This document shows positions 35,163-59,416 of a stretch of DNA of 64,000 nt, in pieces; the stretch's first letter is position 1; each line of letters begins with the position of its first letter. The position numbers were made by a program, and so were the translations under genes. Source of the stretch: Phytoactinopolyspora limicola (lineage in GTDB: Bacteria; Actinomycetota; Actinomycetes; Jiangellales; Jiangellaceae); contig NZ_JAAOEN010000008.1 of NCBI RefSeq assembly GCF_011320225.1, forward strand, positions 62,001 to 126,000, given 5' to 3'. The notes under the pieces were generated by a model. It was given only the letters and a program-made list of their open reading frames with translations. It was not told the DNA's origin and ran no database searches.

Positions 35163-35978
35163 GTGACGGTCGATGTGAAGAGTCTGGTCGAGTTGGGCGT
35201 AGCCGCTGCCCGCGAAGCCGGAGAGTTGGCGCGAGAGCGGCGGCAGGCCGTTGAGCGGATGGCGGTGGCCGCCACGAAGTCCACCCCGACCGATGTGGTC
35301 ACCGAATCCGACACCGCGGCCGAGAAGCTCATCCGGGAGCGCCTGCTGGCGGCCCGGCCGGGCGACGCCGTCCATGGTGAAGAAGGTGGGCACAGCGCGG
35401 GTGACTCAGGTGTGGTGTGGGTGGTCGACCCCATCGACGGCACGGTCAACTACCTGTACGGCATCCCGCAGTATTCGGTGTCGATCGCCGCGCAGGTCGA
35501 CGGTGTCGTGGAGGCGGGCGTCGTCCACAATCCGGTGAGCGGCGAGACCTGGACGGCGATGCGCGGGTCGGGTGCGCTGCTGGATGGCGAGCCCATCCGG
35601 GTATCCGGCTGCACTGATCTGGGGCTGGCGCTCGTGGGCACCGGCTTCGGCTACGACGCGCAGCGCCGGGCTCGCCAGGCGGCCGTGCTGGCCGAGGTGG
35701 TGCCAAGGGTCCGGGATATCCGCCGGGGTGGCTCAGCCGCCTTGGACCTGTGCTGGGTGGCGTGTGGTCGGATGGACGCTTACTACGAGCGGGGACTGAA
35801 CCCGTGGGACCGAGCCGCCGGTGGTTTGATCGCGGAGGAGGCCGGAGCCGTGGTTAGCGGGCTCCACGGCCGGCCGCCCGGCGAGGCCATGACCCTGGCG
35901 GTCAGCCCGGGTATCGAGGCCGACCTGCGAGCACTGTTGGAGCGGCTGGGTGCCGACCGCGACCCCCAACTCCCGTGA
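35163..35978 (+). CDS. Inositol monophosphatase family protein
   Basis: A 271-residue Mg-dependent phosphatase of the SuhB/IMPase family. Metal ligands are in VHGEEGG (Glu), WVVDPIDGTVNYLYG (Asp-Pro-x-Asp-Gly-Thr) and LNPWDRAAGGLIAEEAGAVV (Trp-Asp). The N-terminal helix and KSTPTDVVTESDTAAE are also typical. Substrates in the family include inositol 1-phosphate, histidinol phosphate and fructose 1,6-bisphosphate, and the choice cannot be made here. The GTG start is preceded by GAGGAG. It is probably co-transcribed with ferrochelatase, and its stop codon is part of the 62-bp palindrome. Confidence 0.92.
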   Translation: MTVDVKSLVELGVAAAREAGELARERRQAVERMAVAATKSTPTDVVTESDTAAEKLIRERLLAARPGDAVHGEEGGHSAGDSGVVWVVDPIDGTVNYLYGIPQYSVSIAAQVDGVVEAGVVHNPVSGETWTAMRGSGALLDGEPIRVSGCTDLGLALVGTGFGYDAQRRARQAAVLAEVVPRVRDIRRGGSAALDLCWVACGRMDAYYERGLNPWDRAAGGLIAEEAGAVVSGLHGRPPGEAMTLAVSPGIEADLRALLERLGADRDPQLP

Positions 35979-36031
35979 TCATTGGCTTTTGACTACCGAA
36001 TTCGGTAGTCAAAAGCCAATGATCACGGGAG
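35970..36031. repeat. Perfect 62-bp palindrome overlapping the inositol phosphatase stop codon
   Basis: Two 31-base arms meet without a loop at 36000/36001 inside GAATTC and are exactly complementary. The TGA stop (35976-35978) is in the left arm. As RNA this would be a very stable hairpin and could end transcription, though there is no U-run. The rest of the 35979-36298 gap holds the inverted repeat described next and no gene. Confidence 0.97.
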
Positions 36032-36039
36032 GAAGGGGA

Positions 36040-47034: not shown

Positions 47035-47391
47035 ACCTTCGACTCTAGCGCCCAGCGCAGCGTTGCCACCGTGACGGCGTACGTCGTCCACGCCCCACCC
47101 CGGCCCGGCGCGGGTTTCACCGCCGCCCCCGTTGCGCACCTGATCTCCGTTTTGTCACCTGATCGTTCTTGTGGCGACGATCAGGTGCACGGCGGATGGC
47201 GTTTACCCTGCTCAACGGCCCGTTGGCGCATGCGACCTCGTCTCAGGATATGGGCGAGCCGTGGATCAGATGCACGGTCGCGCCTCGTGGGGCGGGTTAT
47301 GCATCTGATCGTCAGAGCGGCTGCCGCCTTCGCCAGCTCGGGCGTCGGGTTGGACGCCCAGTCCGGCGGCACCCGTCCTCAGCTGACCGCC

Positions 47392-47499
47392 ACAAGCTTC
47401 CTTGCGGCACGCTGCCGTGTGCAGTAAGCCTCCTTGTTGTTGCCCTGGTGACAGTAAGCCTCCTTGTGCCCGGGGCGGGGGCCGCAGTAAACCTCCTTG
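47392..47499. repeat. Four imperfect direct repeats at 30-32 bp spacing
   Basis: CAGTAAGCCTCCTTGT occurs at 47422 and 47452, CAGTAAACCTCCTTGT at 47484, and a weaker copy (ACAAGCTTCCTTGC) at 47392. The bases between them differ. The array is inside the noncoding element. Confidence 0.85.
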
Positions 47500-47557
47500 T
47501 TGTGGCCTGGACGGCGACACGTTTCCCCTGCGGTGCGGGCCGCGCCGGCGTGCCCCG

Positions 47558-47629
47558 GCACTTCGCTACCGCCAGATGGGGTTGAGGGCCGGAATCGGGT
47601 GTTAACGCCATCTGGCGGTAGCGAAGTGC
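47558..47629. repeat. Perfect 22-bp inverted repeat with 28-base loop
   Basis: The arms 47558-47579 and 47608-47629 are exactly complementary (left arm begins GCACTTCGCTACCGCC). The hairpin lies in the noncoding element and has no U-run. Confidence 0.95.
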
Positions 47630-47784
47630 GCTATGCCGTACCGGGATCTGGCGATCATCCGGCTCATACACCGCCACAGCGCCGCGTTCGCCGTCGTCGC
47701 ACAGCCCGACGGCCGTATTTCGCCTGACAGCAATCCCAGCCAGCACCACCAGCCCCAAAACGCACAGATCGTTTTCGCGGGGAC

Positions 47785-47841
47785 GATCAGGTGCGGAAAC
47801 GGAGATCAGGTGCGGAAACGGAGATCAGGTGCGGAAACGGG
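47785..47841. repeat. Three tandem copies of a 19-bp unit with GATCAGGTGC
   Basis: GATCAGGTGCGGAAACGGA begins at 47785, 47804 and 47823; the last base of copy three differs. A hairpin, GATCGT with ACGATC around a 10-base loop, immediately precedes it (47767-47788). The array ends six bases before the end of the LigD-type gene. Confidence 0.95.
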
Positions 47842-47846
47842 GTGGG

Positions 47847-48896
47847 TCAGTCCCCGGGGTGGCGGGCGCGGCTGGGTTGGACCCGCATGGGTTCGCCGGG
47901 CATCTTCGGATACTCAGGTGGGTACGGAAGGTCGCCGAGGTCGTGGTCTCGGGCGTCGCGTTCGGCCATCGTCAGCAGCGGCTCGATCGAGTACGCGTTC
48001 TCCTCCATGTCGGCGTGTGGATCACCGATTTCCGCATACCGCGCCGGCATAGTGGCGACGTCGAAATCCTCTGGCCGGGCGTCGCCGACTTCGTCCCAGC
48101 GCAGCGGGGCCGACACCGTGGCCTGCGGCCGTGGCCGGATCGAGTAGGCCGAGGCGATGGTGCGGTCGCGGGCCATCTGGTTGAAGTCGATGAAGATCTT
48201 CTCGCCGCGCTCCTCTTTCCACCATGACATGGTGACCAGCGACGGTAGCCGCCGCTCCAACTCTCGGCCGAAGGCGATCACCGCGCGCCGGACCTCGACG
48301 AAGTCCCACCGCGGTTCGATCGGAACGTACAGGTGTAGTCCGCGTCCGCCGGAGGTTTTGGGGAATCCGTCCAGGCCGAGTTCTTGCAGCAATGCCCGTG
48401 CCTCTGGTGCGACTCGGGCGGCGTCGGCGTAGTCGGTGCCTGGCTGCGGATCGAGATCGATTCGCAGTTGGTCGGGGTGGTCCGGGGTGTCTCGCCGGAC
48501 CGGCCAAGGGTGGAAGGTCAACGTCCCGAGGTTGGCCGCCCAGGCAACCACGGCCAGTTCGGTAGGGCAGACCTCGTCGGCGGGGCGACCGCTGGGGAAG
48601 GTGATGCTGGCCGTCTCTACCCACGACGGTGCACCCTTGGGTACCCGTTTCTGGTAGAACGCGTCGCCCCGGTTGTTCTGCCGGGTGGACAGCCGCGCAC
48701 CCTCGACGACGCCGCCGGGCCAGCGTTCCAGCGTGGTGGGCCGCTGATGTAGCGCCCCCAGGATGCCGTCGCCCACCGCCACGAAGTAGTTGACGACGTC
48801 GAGCTTGGTGAAGCCCCGCTCCGGAAAGTAGATCTTGTCTGGGCTGGACACGCGGACCTCGCGCCCTCCCACGTCGAGGAAGACCGGTTCACTCAC
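47847..48896 (-). CDS. Standalone LigD-type polymerase/primase domain protein (NHEJ)
   Basis: A 349-residue protein corresponding to the polymerase domain of bacterial LigD, an archaeo-eukaryotic primase fold that fills ends during non-homologous end joining. Key parts are YFPERGFTKLDVVNYFVAVG, RPTTLERWPGGV, the metal-binding LRIDLDPQPGTDY (Asp-x-Asp), KTSGGRGLHLYVPIEP and FIDFNQMARDRTIASAYSIR. There is no ligase or nuclease domain attached. A separate ATP-dependent ligase is encoded at 49683. No ku gene is in the window. The GTG start at 48896 is preceded by AGGTGA. The stop is six bases from the end of the noncoding element. Confidence 0.92.
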   Translation of the reverse strand: MSEPVFLDVGGREVRVSSPDKIYFPERGFTKLDVVNYFVAVGDGILGALHQRPTTLERWPGGVVEGARLSTRQNNRGDAFYQKRVPKGAPSWVETASITFPSGRPADEVCPTELAVVAWAANLGTLTFHPWPVRRDTPDHPDQLRIDLDPQPGTDYADAARVAPEARALLQELGLDGFPKTSGGRGLHLYVPIEPRWDFVEVRRAVIAFGRELERRLPSLVTMSWWKEERGEKIFIDFNQMARDRTIASAYSIRPRPQATVSAPLRWDEVGDARPEDFDVATMPARYAEIGDPHADMEENAYSIEPLLTMAERDARDHDLGDLPYPPEYPKMPGEPMRVQPSRARHPGD

Positions 48897-55446: not shown

Positions 55447-56502
55447 GTGCCCGATCAGCTGGTGAGCCGACGCCCGGAGGTTCCGGCATCCCGTCTGATC
55501 GCCGAGATGGTGCCACCGCCGCGGTTCGCCGCGGTCAGCTTCGACACCTATATTCCCGACCCCTCCCAGCCCTCACAGAACGAAGCAGTTGTCGCGCTGC
55601 GGTCCTTCGCCGGGGCCGTCGTCGACGTCGGTGGGTCGTCAGTCCGGTGGTGGCGACGACGTGGACGCGGGTCTGGCCCGGCCCGATCCGCCGACATCAG
55701 CCGGCCCGGTATGTACGTCGATGGTGGGTTCGGGGTGGGGAAGACCCACTTGCTCGCGTCACTCTGGCATGCCGCTGACCTTCCAGCCGAACAGAAGACG
55801 TTCTGTACGTTCGTCGAGTTGACCCACCTGGTTGGTGCACTCGGGTTCGCAGCGACGGTCGACGCATTGTCGAGGCGTCGACTGGTGTGCATCGACGAGT
55901 TCGAACTCGACGACCCCGGCGACACCGTGTTGGTGTCCACCCTGCTGAACCGGCTGACCGAAGCCGGTGTGCGGCTGGCCGCCACAAGCAACACGCTGCC
56001 CGACAAGCTGGGAGAGGGACGTTTCGCCGCCGCCGACTTCCTCCGCGAGATCCAGGCACTCGCGGCGCGGTTCACCGTGGTACGAGTGGACGGCGAGGAC
56101 TACCGGCACCGAGGCCTGCCCGCGGCGCCGGAACCGCCGGGCGACGACTCCGTCGCTGCGCGCGCCGCCAACACGGCTGGGTCGACGCTGGACGACTTCA
56201 GCACGCTCTGCGACCACCTGGCCCAGGTGCATCCGTCCCGGTATGGGCCGATGCTGGACGGGGTGCGGCAGGTGTACCTGACCGGTGTGACAACCGTGGC
56301 CGACCAGAACGTCGCACTGCGTCTAGTGGTGTTGGCCGACCGCCTCTACGACCGTGAGGTCCCGGTGGTCGCCAGCGGAGTGCGGCTGGACCGGCTGTTC
56401 GCGCCGGAGCTGTTGACCGGGGGATACCGCAAGAAGTACCACCGCGCGGTGAGCCGCCTCGTCGCCCTGGCCCGCGACGCCCCTCCCGCGTTGTGCACCT
56501 GA
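55447..56502 (+). CDS. zapE: AFG1/ZapE family ATPase
   Basis: A 351-residue P-loop ATPase. Walker A is VDGGFGVGKTHLLASLWH, Walker B is RLVCIDEFELDDPGDTVLVS, and sensor-like ATSNTLPDKLGEGRF follows. RFAAVSFDTYIPDPSQPSQN near the start and FAPELLTGGYRKKYHRAVSR near the end are typical. ZapE of E. coli acts on the Z ring, and mitochondrial Afg1 in protein turnover; the actinobacterial role is not settled. The GTG at 55447 lies seven bases after TATCCT (55434-55439), so the message may be leaderless. Its stop codon TGA (56500-56502) is inside the left end of the noncoding inverted element. Confidence 0.88.
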   Translation: MPDQLVSRRPEVPASRLIAEMVPPPRFAAVSFDTYIPDPSQPSQNEAVVALRSFAGAVVDVGGSSVRWWRRRGRGSGPARSADISRPGMYVDGGFGVGKTHLLASLWHAADLPAEQKTFCTFVELTHLVGALGFAATVDALSRRRLVCIDEFELDDPGDTVLVSTLLNRLTEAGVRLAATSNTLPDKLGEGRFAAADFLREIQALAARFTVVRVDGEDYRHRGLPAAPEPPGDDSVAARAANTAGSTLDDFSTLCDHLAQVHPSRYGPMLDGVRQVYLTGVTTVADQNVALRLVVLADRLYDREVPVVASGVRLDRLFAPELLTGGYRKKYHRAVSRLVALARDAPPALCT

Positions 56503-57123
56503 TCTTCGTTTTGACGCCTGATCGTTTTCATGGCGACGATCAGGTGCGTCGGTGGTGGCGACGGGCAGTGTCGACGCGCGGTTGCCGCGCCTGATCGTCT
56601 CCACGATGTGGGACGGTTGGCGATCAGATGCGTGAACCGTCGCATGGCGTCTGGTAGCGCATCTGATCGTGTCGAGGCGGCACCGTGCTATGCGGATGTG
56701 GCGGTGGCCTGCGGGGCGGATGTGGCGGGGTGCCGGTGCCGACTACTCCAGGGGGTTGTCCGGGGCTTGCCGGGGTAGCCCGGTGTGCCAGGACCTGGGT
56801 TGGTGCGTTGACCGCCTCCACAACTGCGACATTTCACCCACGGCAACAAGCGGCCAGCGCACCAGGCCTTCGTCCGACGGTGCTGCCCTCGTCCGTTGGC
56901 GGGCACCCGTGCGCCCTGCGCGTCCACGTAGCGCCCATTGCGACGCGATCAGATGCACTACCGGACGCCATGCGACGGTTGGCGCATCTGATCGCCAAGC
57001 GTCCCACATCGTGGAGACGATCAGGTGCGGCAACCGCGCGTCGCCACTGGCCGTCGTCACCACCGACGCACCTGATCGTCGCCATGAAAACGATCAGGCG
57101 TCAAAACGGAGATCAGGTGCACA
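56492..57123. repeat. Noncoding element with 184-bp inverted arms (first copy)
   Basis: Arm A (56492-56675) and arm B (56940-57123) are inverted copies of 184 bases that align without gaps and differ at about 12 positions. The centre (56676-56939, 264 bases) has no gene or clear repeat. The outer ends read TGTGCACCTGATC. Each arm contains a hairpin CCTGATCGT/ACGATCAGG with a 10-base loop and a second hairpin based on GATCAGATGC and GCATCTGATC. The stop codons of both convergent neighbours (ZapE-type and HelD-type) lie in the terminal CCTGATC. No transposase is encoded. Confidence 0.93.
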
Positions 57124-59416
57124 CCCGGGTGAGGGGGGTGGGGAGATCGCCGCTGTGGATGATGTCGAGCCGCTGGGTAGGGCGGGTCAGTGCGACGTAG
57201 AGGTCGGTGGCGCCCCGCGCGGACTCGGCCACGATCTCACCCGGCTCGACCACGATCACCGTGTCGAATTCCAACCCCTTCGCCTGTTCCACCGTCAGGA
57301 CGGCGGCGCGGGCGTCGAGTGCGCTGGGGTCGTCGGTGCCAAGCGCAACGGTCGCCCCGATCGTCGTGTCCAACATCCGATGGAGTTCGCCAGCTAGCGA
57401 GCGAGGTGTGATGACCGCGAGCCGGCCATCATGGTCGGCATCGATATCAGCCGCGACGGCGGCCGCCACTTGGTCGGCCAGTTTCTCGGCCGGAACCTGA
57501 CTGGCCTGCGGGTAGATGCCGGTGGAACGCACCGACGTCGGCGGCTCGAGGTCGGAGTTGATGGTGTGCAGGACGTCGGCGGCTAGCTCCATCACCTCCG
57601 CCGGGGTGCGGTAGTTCACCGTCAGCGTCTCCTGCCGCCACCGGCCGGGTACATGTGGGTCGAGCACGTCGGCCCAGGAGTGTGCGCCTGCGGCGGCCGT
57701 GGTCTGCGCGATGTCACCGACGACGGTCATGGATTTGTTCGGCACCCGCCGCACCACCATGCGCCAGGCCATCGGCGACAACTCCTGGGCTTCGTCGACG
57801 ATCACATGACCGTAGGCCCAATGGCGGTCAGCGCCGGCTCGTTCGGCGACGGCGGCGGTGGCTGTCGCGCCGCGGTAGCGTTCGGCCACTTGGGCGGCGT
57901 CGACCGGGAACCCGAGGTCGAGACCGGTCAGCATCTCCTGAGCGAACCGCGCCTCGGCCTGCCGCTCCTGCGCTTCTCGCCGGGCCGCGGCGAGTGCGGC
58001 CTCATCCGGAGGTTCGCCGAGTAGATCGGCGGCCTCGTCCAGCAGCGGAATGTCGGCCTCGGACCACACGTCGTCACCACGGGAGTATTCGGGTTGGTGC
58101 AGGGCGGCACGTTCGGGTTCGTCGAGGGTCCGTGCGGTCGCGAGCAGGCGTGGGGTGGTGAACAGGCGGGTGAGAAGCTGCGTCGGCGACAACACTGGCC
58201 ACAGGTCGTCGATGACCGCCTGCACGTCGGGTTCACCGGCCAGGTCGGCCCTGGCGTCGGTGACGTCTTCGTCGTCGGCCACCTGACCGGAGCGTTCGAG
58301 ATACTGGCGGGCCAGCACGGTGCGGATCTCGCGGGAGAACGTCGCCCGGGCCTCGTTGTGCGCCCGTCGGGTCCGTCGAGCACGGGTACGGGCGGTCCGC
58401 ACGGCGTCCGGCTCGAGAATGAGGGCGGTTCCGTCGACGTGGAGTGGGACGGGGGAGCGGGGCACACGTTGGTGGTGCCGCACAGCGGCGGCCACCACCG
58501 ACGCCATCCGCAGATCGCCTTTGAGGATCGCGGTGTGGTCGGGTTCACGACGCTGAGCTTCGACGCCGGGGAGCAGCCGGCCGACCGTCGTCAGCGTCAC
58601 CCCGGTCTCGCCCAGCGACGGCAGCACCTGCTCGATGTAGCGCATGAACGTGGCGTTGGGGCCGAGCACCAGGACGCCACTGCGTTCTAGATGGTCGCGG
58701 TGGGTGTAGAGGAGATAGGCGGCGCGATGGAGCGCGGCCACCGTCTTGCCCGTGCCGGGGCCGCCTTGCACGACGAGGACGCCACCGAGTGGGGAGCGGA
58801 TGATGCGGTCCTGTTCGGCCTGGATGGTGGCGACGATGTCGGACATCCGTCCGGTGCGGTGTTCGCCGAGCGTGGCGAGTAGGGCGGCTTCCCCGCTGAG
58901 CGCGCCGGTTCCGGTAGACCTGGCGGTTTCGGCGAAGGTTTCGGCGAAGACTTCGTCGTCCACGCCGGTGACGACTCGCTGGCGGATCCGGATATGCCGC
59001 CGCCGGGCGATCTCGCCCGGGTTGGCCGCGGTGGCGCGGTAGAACGGTTCGGCCGCCGGGGCCCGCCAGTCGATCAGCAGCGGGTTGTACTCGTCGTCGG
59101 CCAGCGCGATCCGTCCGATGTGCGAGACGGCGTGGTCTCGGGTGTCCAACCGGCCGAAACACAGTCCCCGGTCGACGGAGAGGAGCCGCTCGAGGCGTTC
59201 GACCTCACGATCGACGAAGGCTTCCCGTTCCCACACCGCTTGGTGGTTGAACCCCTGCTGTTTGTACAGCTCGGCCAGGCGTTCGGTGGTGCGGGTGCGG
59301 AGCTGGTCGAGGCGGTCGTAGAGCAACGAAACGTACTGCTGCTCCTCCGTGACCGGATCCGAAGCTGAATGACCGGCGTCATTTGACAGAAGGCGCCGCC
59401 GCTCACTATTGTTAAT
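57113..59416 (-). CDS. helD: HelD/HelR-type UvrD-like RNA polymerase-associated helicase; start codon uncertain
   Basis: A superfamily 1 ATPase of about 767 residues, the group that binds RNA polymerase and releases stalled or rifamycin-bound enzyme. The N-terminal arm includes LTQ-like coiled sequence and GLCFGRLDTRDHAVSHIGRI, then PLLIDWRAPAAEPFYRATAA. Walker A is VVQGGPGTGKTVAALHRAAY, Walker B VIVDEAQELSPMAWRMVVRR, and later motifs include SMTVVGDIAQTTAAAGAH, LTVNYRTPAEVMELAADVLH and VEQAKGLEFDTVIVVEPGEI. Homology begins upstream of the TTG at 59326 (EEQQYVSLLYDRLD), but no in-frame ATG or GTG exists back to the stop at about 59456. An ATT at 59416, seven bases after GAGG, is the best candidate start. 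Confidence 0.85.
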   Translation of the reverse strand: MNNSERRRLLSNDAGHSASDPVTEEQQYVSLLYDRLDQLRTRTTERLAELYKQQGFNHQAVWEREAFVDREVERLERLLSVDRGLCFGRLDTRDHAVSHIGRIALADDEYNPLLIDWRAPAAEPFYRATAANPGEIARRRHIRIRQRVVTGVDDEVFAETFAETARSTGTGALSGEAALLATLGEHRTGRMSDIVATIQAEQDRIIRSPLGGVLVVQGGPGTGKTVAALHRAAYLLYTHRDHLERSGVLVLGPNATFMRYIEQVLPSLGETGVTLTTVGRLLPGVEAQRREPDHTAILKGDLRMASVVAAAVRHHQRVPRSPVPLHVDGTALILEPDAVRTARTRARRTRRAHNEARATFSREIRTVLARQYLERSGQVADDEDVTDARADLAGEPDVQAVIDDLWPVLSPTQLLTRLFTTPRLLATARTLDEPERAALHQPEYSRGDDVWSEADIPLLDEAADLLGEPPDEAALAAARREAQERQAEARFAQEMLTGLDLGFPVDAAQVAERYRGATATAAVAERAGADRHWAYGHVIVDEAQELSPMAWRMVVRRVPNKSMTVVGDIAQTTAAAGAHSWADVLDPHVPGRWRQETLTVNYRTPAEVMELAADVLHTINSDLEPPTSVRSTGIYPQASQVPAEKLADQVAAAVAADIDADHDGRLAVITPRSLAGELHRMLDTTIGATVALGTDDPSALDARAAVLTVEQAKGLEFDTVIVVEPGEIVAESARGATDLYVALTRPTQRLDIIHSGDLPTPLTRVCT

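Follow-up and report, generated by a model that had tools for sequence, protein, structure and literature searches.

Helically phased motif arrays at gene 3' ends in Jiangellaceae and a possible role as protein-bound boundaries between convergent genes

An inverted pair of half-elements between two convergent genes of Phytoactinopolyspora limicola belongs to a repeat family that is best read as previously unnamed, specific to Jiangellaceae, REP-like and amplified in particular lineages. Intact arms of this family carry arrays of short motifs, at intervals that group around whole helical turns (21, 31-33, 41-42, 51-54 and 62 bp). The arrays are placed at gene 3' ends, and the family has spread within the group, with its motifs retained at shared sites. 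The reading that we favour, at a probability of roughly 45%, is that the arrays act as protein-bound two-way boundaries at gene 3' ends, which were spread by copying and kept where useful. In high-G+C actinobacteria classical terminators are scarce, and how convergent genes are separated is poorly known.

The pair was studied in the window, i.e. the whole stretch of 64,000 bp that was analysed (Table 1). An earlier note on this DNA had described gap-free inverted arms of 184 bp with 12 differences around 264 bp, and this geometry is exact (a repeat search gave 183 nt at 94%). Its further description as a noncoding element between convergent genes holds for the convergence but not for a strictly intergenic position: the TGA stops of both flanking genes are supplied by CACCTGATC at the outer arm ends, and the element therefore overlaps the last codons of both genes. 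Likewise, the reported GATC-centred hairpins are in fact 12 regularly arrayed YCTGATC motifs, which run >><><> and are then mirrored. None of the 12 differences between the arms falls within the 42 motif columns of an arm. The spacer is 77-85% conserved in about ten other copies in the same genome. A second, degenerate copy of the family lies elsewhere in the window; its partial opposite arm carries three tandem 19-bp outer motifs, and its spacer holds an unrelated 26-bp inverted repeat (47558-47629) together with AGTAAGCCTCCTTGT-type repeats.

Table 1 Features of the motif array and its surroundings in the window (positions count from the first base of the window).
Feature	Position	Strand	Remarks
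Left half-element (arm)	56492..56675	+	Outer end at ZapE stop codon
Right half-element (arm)	56940..57123	-	Outer end at stop codon of HelR-like gene
Spacer between arms	56676..56939		264 bp, gene-free
Motif 1, left arm (CCTGATC)	56498..56504	+	Offset 0
Motif 2, left arm	56517..56523	+	Offset 19
Motif 3, left arm	56538..56544	-	Offset 40
Motif 4, left arm	56590..56596	+	Offset 92, plus-one-turn variant of 82
Motif 5, left arm	56622..56628	-	Offset 124
Motif 6, left arm	56662..56668	+	Offset 164
Motif 1, right arm	57111..57117	-	
Motif 2, right arm	57092..57098	-	
Motif 3, right arm	57071..57077	+	
Motif 4, right arm	57019..57025	-	Offset 92
Motif 5, right arm	56987..56993	+	Offset 124
Motif 6, right arm	56947..56953	-	Offset 164
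ZapE/AFG1-like ATPase gene, flanking	55447..56502	+	TGA stop inside left-arm motif 1
UvrD-like helicase gene, HelR/HelD type (assignment below NCBIfam cut-offs), convergent flank	57113..59326	-	TGA stop inside right-arm motif 1
Second, degenerate family copy	47131..47848		Full left arm (47131-47314) and partial right arm

Across the family a half-element measures about 165 bp, and the motif has the fuller form CRYCTGATC. Intact arms all carry six YCTGATC motifs in the order >><><>, in a sample of arms whose selection by pattern biases it towards intact motifs 1-3; in Jiangella half-elements motif 1 is often missing. The motifs of the other genomes lie at offsets 0, 19, 40, 81-83, 112-114 and 153-155, or with 91-93, 122-125 and 163-166. 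The spacings from motif 3 onwards were not used in arm selection and could have taken a wide range of values. In the window's genome they are 41-42 or 51-54 bp, with one of 62, between motifs 3 and 4, 31-33 bp between motifs 4 and 5, with a few at 21 and 43, and 40-41 bp between motifs 5 and 6. The corresponding values in other genomes are 41-43 or 51-53, 31-32, and 40-42 with a single 51 and 52, and no values fall between these classes. The step from motif 1 to motif 2 is 19 bp, about 2 bases short of two turns.

In an alignment of 58 half-elements the motifs are near-invariant and the rest is mostly free to vary, with a TCTCCA..ATGTGGAC segment conserved between motifs 4 and 5. The consensus at the element end is C-rich and followed by GTTGTG-CACCTGATC; outer ends start with TGT in the window's species, and the CGTC that follows GATC in other genera lies inside motif 1 and is not a terminal tag. 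A covariation check of the stems inside half-elements found no compensating changes beyond the motif, and motifs 1 and 6 are conserved in solo halves despite having no pairing partner there. Near-invariant phased motifs, a free interior and the lack of covariation are together read as a DNA platform for a protein.

The position of the elements relative to genes is strongly skewed in the window's genome. Convergent gene pairs flank 39 of 66 scorable elements but only 26 of 295 control pairs are convergent (odds ratio 15), and divergent pairs account for 3 of 66 and 50 of 295, respectively; these counts come from a home-made gene caller, with control pairs drawn from the same loci. Taking the window alone as a baseline, where 10 of 48 pairs are convergent, the excess at elements is still clear. 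A small part of all convergent junctions carries an element. Where an outer end faces a gene 3' end, the two are at most 30 nt apart in 61 of 89 cases, compared to 1 of 20 for a facing 5' end. Solo halves in other genera are oriented in the same sense, with 25 outer versus 9 inner ends at most 30 nt away from the 3' end of a gene (binomial p 0.009). TAA is the stop codon of 28 of the 73 genes that end at an element, compared with 39 of the 348 others; C-rich bases follow the stops of the former. The element end thus appears to bring its own stop codon.

With one arm as the query, 48 places were found in the 6.59-Mb draft of the window's genome. There are 75 copies of the end motif CACCTGATCTCCGTTT on one strand and 76 on the other; most of them form inverted pairs that face outwards, with 0.13-1.5 kb between the members. 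The exact core pattern has 160 matches in this genome, 33 in Phytoactinopolyspora alkaliphila (G001) of the same genus, 35 in Haloactinopolyspora alba (G005), 27 in a genome of the Jiangella group (G015) and 0-1 in the remaining genomes; the reversed core pattern had zero occurrences in the genomes searched. Arms occurring only here, or as part of a known terminator or attachment site, which the earlier note had named as the outcome against it, are excluded by the 48 arm matches and by the lack of an Rfam or intrinsic-terminator match. A sequence model matched in 14 of 22 Jiangellaceae genomes (8 negative), with 1 to more than 120 copies each. Outside the family Jiangellaceae, no match passed stricter filters in a sample of 148 genomes of the class Actinomycetes, nor was there any match in plasmid and phage collections. 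Single pattern matches in Clostridiales, Lentisphaerae, Rhodobacteraceae, Mycobacterium, Binatota and Aeromonadales were rejected, as their motifs 4-6 are not in phase and they fit chance. An earlier description of the motif or of Jiangellaceae repeats was not found in the open literature, which misses most subscription journals.

The paired form is present in the window's species, and solo half-elements in Haloactinopolyspora and Jiangella. In three pairs (L072, L074 and L076) the two arms are 92-98% alike, far closer than to any other copy, which points to arm-to-arm correction or a recent duplication of one arm; other copies show no such likeness. Contigs of draft G000 often break in or beside elements (e.g. 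L159, L160, L161, L163 and L164), many contig ends have a motif at most a few hundred bases away, and the same half-element sequence stands at the end of C1 and the start of C2. Given these contig ends, the true copy number is probably higher.

Elements have been gained, as is seen at individual junctions and in copy numbers, which range from 0 in some relatives to more than 120 in others. In G017 and G010 a half-element separates two ABC-transporter ATPase genes that, in four Jiangella genomes (G009, G016, G018 and G019), overlap at ATGA or GTGA, or nearly. The G010 copy is flanked by CGTGACCG, a possible target duplication. At the site of the L064 pair 583 bp separate two stop codons, where P. 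alkaliphila has 21 bp, a clean empty site; TGA has become TAA in both stops, and the 21 bp were replaced with no target duplication seen. Both the many copies and the empty sites that the earlier note had proposed to look for do exist. For the window copy itself a clean empty site was not obtained among relatives, because its two genes are not neighbours there.

Other sites are shared. The window's genome, G001, G005, G015, G010, G016 and G019 all carry a half-element in one and the same orientation at the 3' end of sdhB, and G009 retains a remnant. This site, which faces a UvrD-type gene, is shared by three genera, and six further genes or gene pairs also have shared elements. Over these seven groups the motif columns are 94% identical, while the other columns are at 62%, the value of unrelated arms. 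Neutral decay of old insertions would not produce this pattern; selection on the motifs, repeated insertion at the same junctions, or both, would.

Some of these junctions carry palindromes unrelated to the family. Four Jiangella genomes have GTTGATCTTGGAGTAA..TTACTCCAAGATCAAC at the sdhB junction (L345 in G017, L346 in G020, L347 in G018 and L348 in G013), and a similar palindrome lies between the ABC-transporter genes of G015 (L260), where relatives have the phased element. Further palindromes, ACTTCCTGAGCGTA.., CCCTAAATGATCATGTGAAG.. and GCGGAGGGGAGGCGGTGTGTTCACC.., occur downstream of sdhB in G003 (L335) and at the L064 site in G003 (L372) and G004 (L370); one of them has a TGATCA core, which reads TGA on both strands. 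It is as if a palindrome at such a junction were useful. At another convergent junction in the window (35963-36038) two 38-bp arms (CGTGATCATTGGCTTTTGACTACCGAA/TTCGGTAGTCAAAAGCCAATGATCACG) adjoin directly, with no spacer, to form a palindrome. A similar palindrome, TGATCATTGGCCTTTGAC, occupies the L073 element site in G004; the two look like a second family of 3'-end palindromes.

The main rival, which we consider unlikely, is a purely selfish nonautonomous transposable element, whose motifs would be sites for a trans-acting transposase and whose 3' location would reflect low harm or an insertion preference. Lineage-specific bursts, the duplication of the pair with its conserved spacer as a unit in the window's genome, the empty sites in relatives, the possible target duplication in G010 and the stop codons brought by element ends, with their TAA excess, are all in keeping with such an element. 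Its old copies would be expected to decay evenly, however, and at cross-genus sites the motifs have stayed alike with the rest saturated. Solo halves have no second, inverted end, and the 21 bp at the clean empty site were replaced without a target duplication. In addition, no transposase gene was found in the interiors of the six longest of the copies that were read, and RAYT-type Y1 transposases (PF01797) are absent from all 22 Jiangellaceae genomes (0/22), with control genomes positive. A RAYT/REP origin was rejected for this reason. The arms of one 1.46-kb element (L139, 3132-4593) enclose a weak reading frame of 83 aa; this element adjoins the UvrD-type gene which, in P. alkaliphila and H. 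alba, faces sdhB. Overall, the alternatives offered in the earlier note, a nonautonomous mobile element or a regulatory unit, are partly supported: copies and empty sites are there, but the phased array, the oriented 3' placement and the retention of motifs had been missed.

For the boundary reading we infer a binding protein, a boundary function and a mode of copying. The half-element, about 165 bp long, would serve as a DNA platform that presents its six CRYCTGATC sites on the same helix face, and a putative sequence-specific host protein would bind to it. Placed behind one stop codon or two convergent ones, the bound array could form a two-way boundary that blocks or releases RNA polymerase from either side, or alternatively absorbs supercoils in between. 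The family may have expanded within lineages through a putative trans-acting enzyme that copied it to the 3' ends of genes, as a pair in the window's species and as solo halves elsewhere, and copies that serve as boundaries would then be retained by selection on their motifs. A search near solo arms in divergent contexts gave no convincing gene for an autoregulated DNA-binding protein. More tentative still is the view that the family makes up a new class of boundary, in which the six-site phased array would recruit a lineage-specific DNA-binding protein to insulate convergent units and would have been copied first and selected afterwards.

Several observations count against a boundary. The 21-bp junction of P. 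alkaliphila works without an element, motif 2 follows motif 1 after 19 bp, short of two turns, and the share of convergent junctions that carry an element is low. Shared sites, moreover, could reflect repeated insertion into the same hot spots. Copy numbers that differ so widely between close relatives also imply that the function is dispensable or replaceable.

A special case, which seems improbable, is that the array is a topological site that would wrap gyrase or a nucleoid protein and relieve supercoiling between convergent genes, in the way suggested for enterobacterial BIME. A phased array of about 165 bp and the convergent enrichment would suit this, and roles in DNA supercoiling have been proposed for REP sequences (PMC3733652), but gyrase is universal, yet the family is missing in close relatives. 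Least probable, though only slightly less so, is an element acting at the RNA level in the 3' UTR, with transcript hairpins as terminators, RNase stops or stabilisers: the extreme folding energy of the window element (-535 kcal/mol versus -302 +/- 7 for shuffles) and the sense-oriented 3'-end placement agree with it, but stems inside half-elements show no covariation that extends them, motifs 1 and 6 are conserved yet partnerless in solo halves, nothing at the RNA level would call for spacings in whole helical turns, and for the window element no U-tract hairpin was found in an intrinsic-terminator search (the single weak site falls within the ZapE gene, on the minus strand) and no Rfam family matched at gathering score.

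The family offers a defined DNA target with more than 100 natural copies, whole-turn spacing variants and natural empty sites, and whether a protein array ends transcription or a selfish repeat rides along is directly testable.

Among known systems, bidirectional intrinsic terminators share the palindrome between convergent stop codons, but the phased family is 0.45-0.7 kb long, shows no U-tract hairpin and conserves DNA phasing. The transposon ends of Tn7, Mu and Tn5053 type consist of repeated transposase sites, with several oriented copies per end. The family resembles them in its several oriented short sites per end and, in the window's species, in the TGT outer start; it differs in showing no cargo or transposase, in the alternating orientations within an arm and in its solo arms. 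Like MITEs, it is short, gene-free and multicopy, with inverted ends and empty sites, and was copied as a unit in the window's genome. Unlike MITEs, it has solo half-elements in other genera without terminal inverted repeats, shows no constant target duplication (a possible one at the G010 copy, none at the L064 site) and conserves its motif array at cross-genus shared sites. REP, BIME and REPIN sequences are likewise dispersed extragenic palindromes, often in inverted pairs with a spacer, that lie between convergent or unidirectional genes, and vary strongly in copy number between relatives. Their closeness to gene 3' ends and their convergent bias are both found here, and most REPs at convergent junctions are reported to sit no further than 20 bp from both 3' ends (PMC3733652). 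REPs are, however, single hairpins of 20-40 bp, whereas each unit of the phased family spans about 165 bp and holds six CRYCTGATC motifs, with a saturated interior, conserved motif spacing and no terminal GTAG or CGTC tag, and the 22 genomes have no Y1/RAYT transposase. The family is placed like a REP dimer; membership is not supported, as transposase, tag and length all disagree (the unit is at least four times longer), and REP sequences are its nearest known kind.
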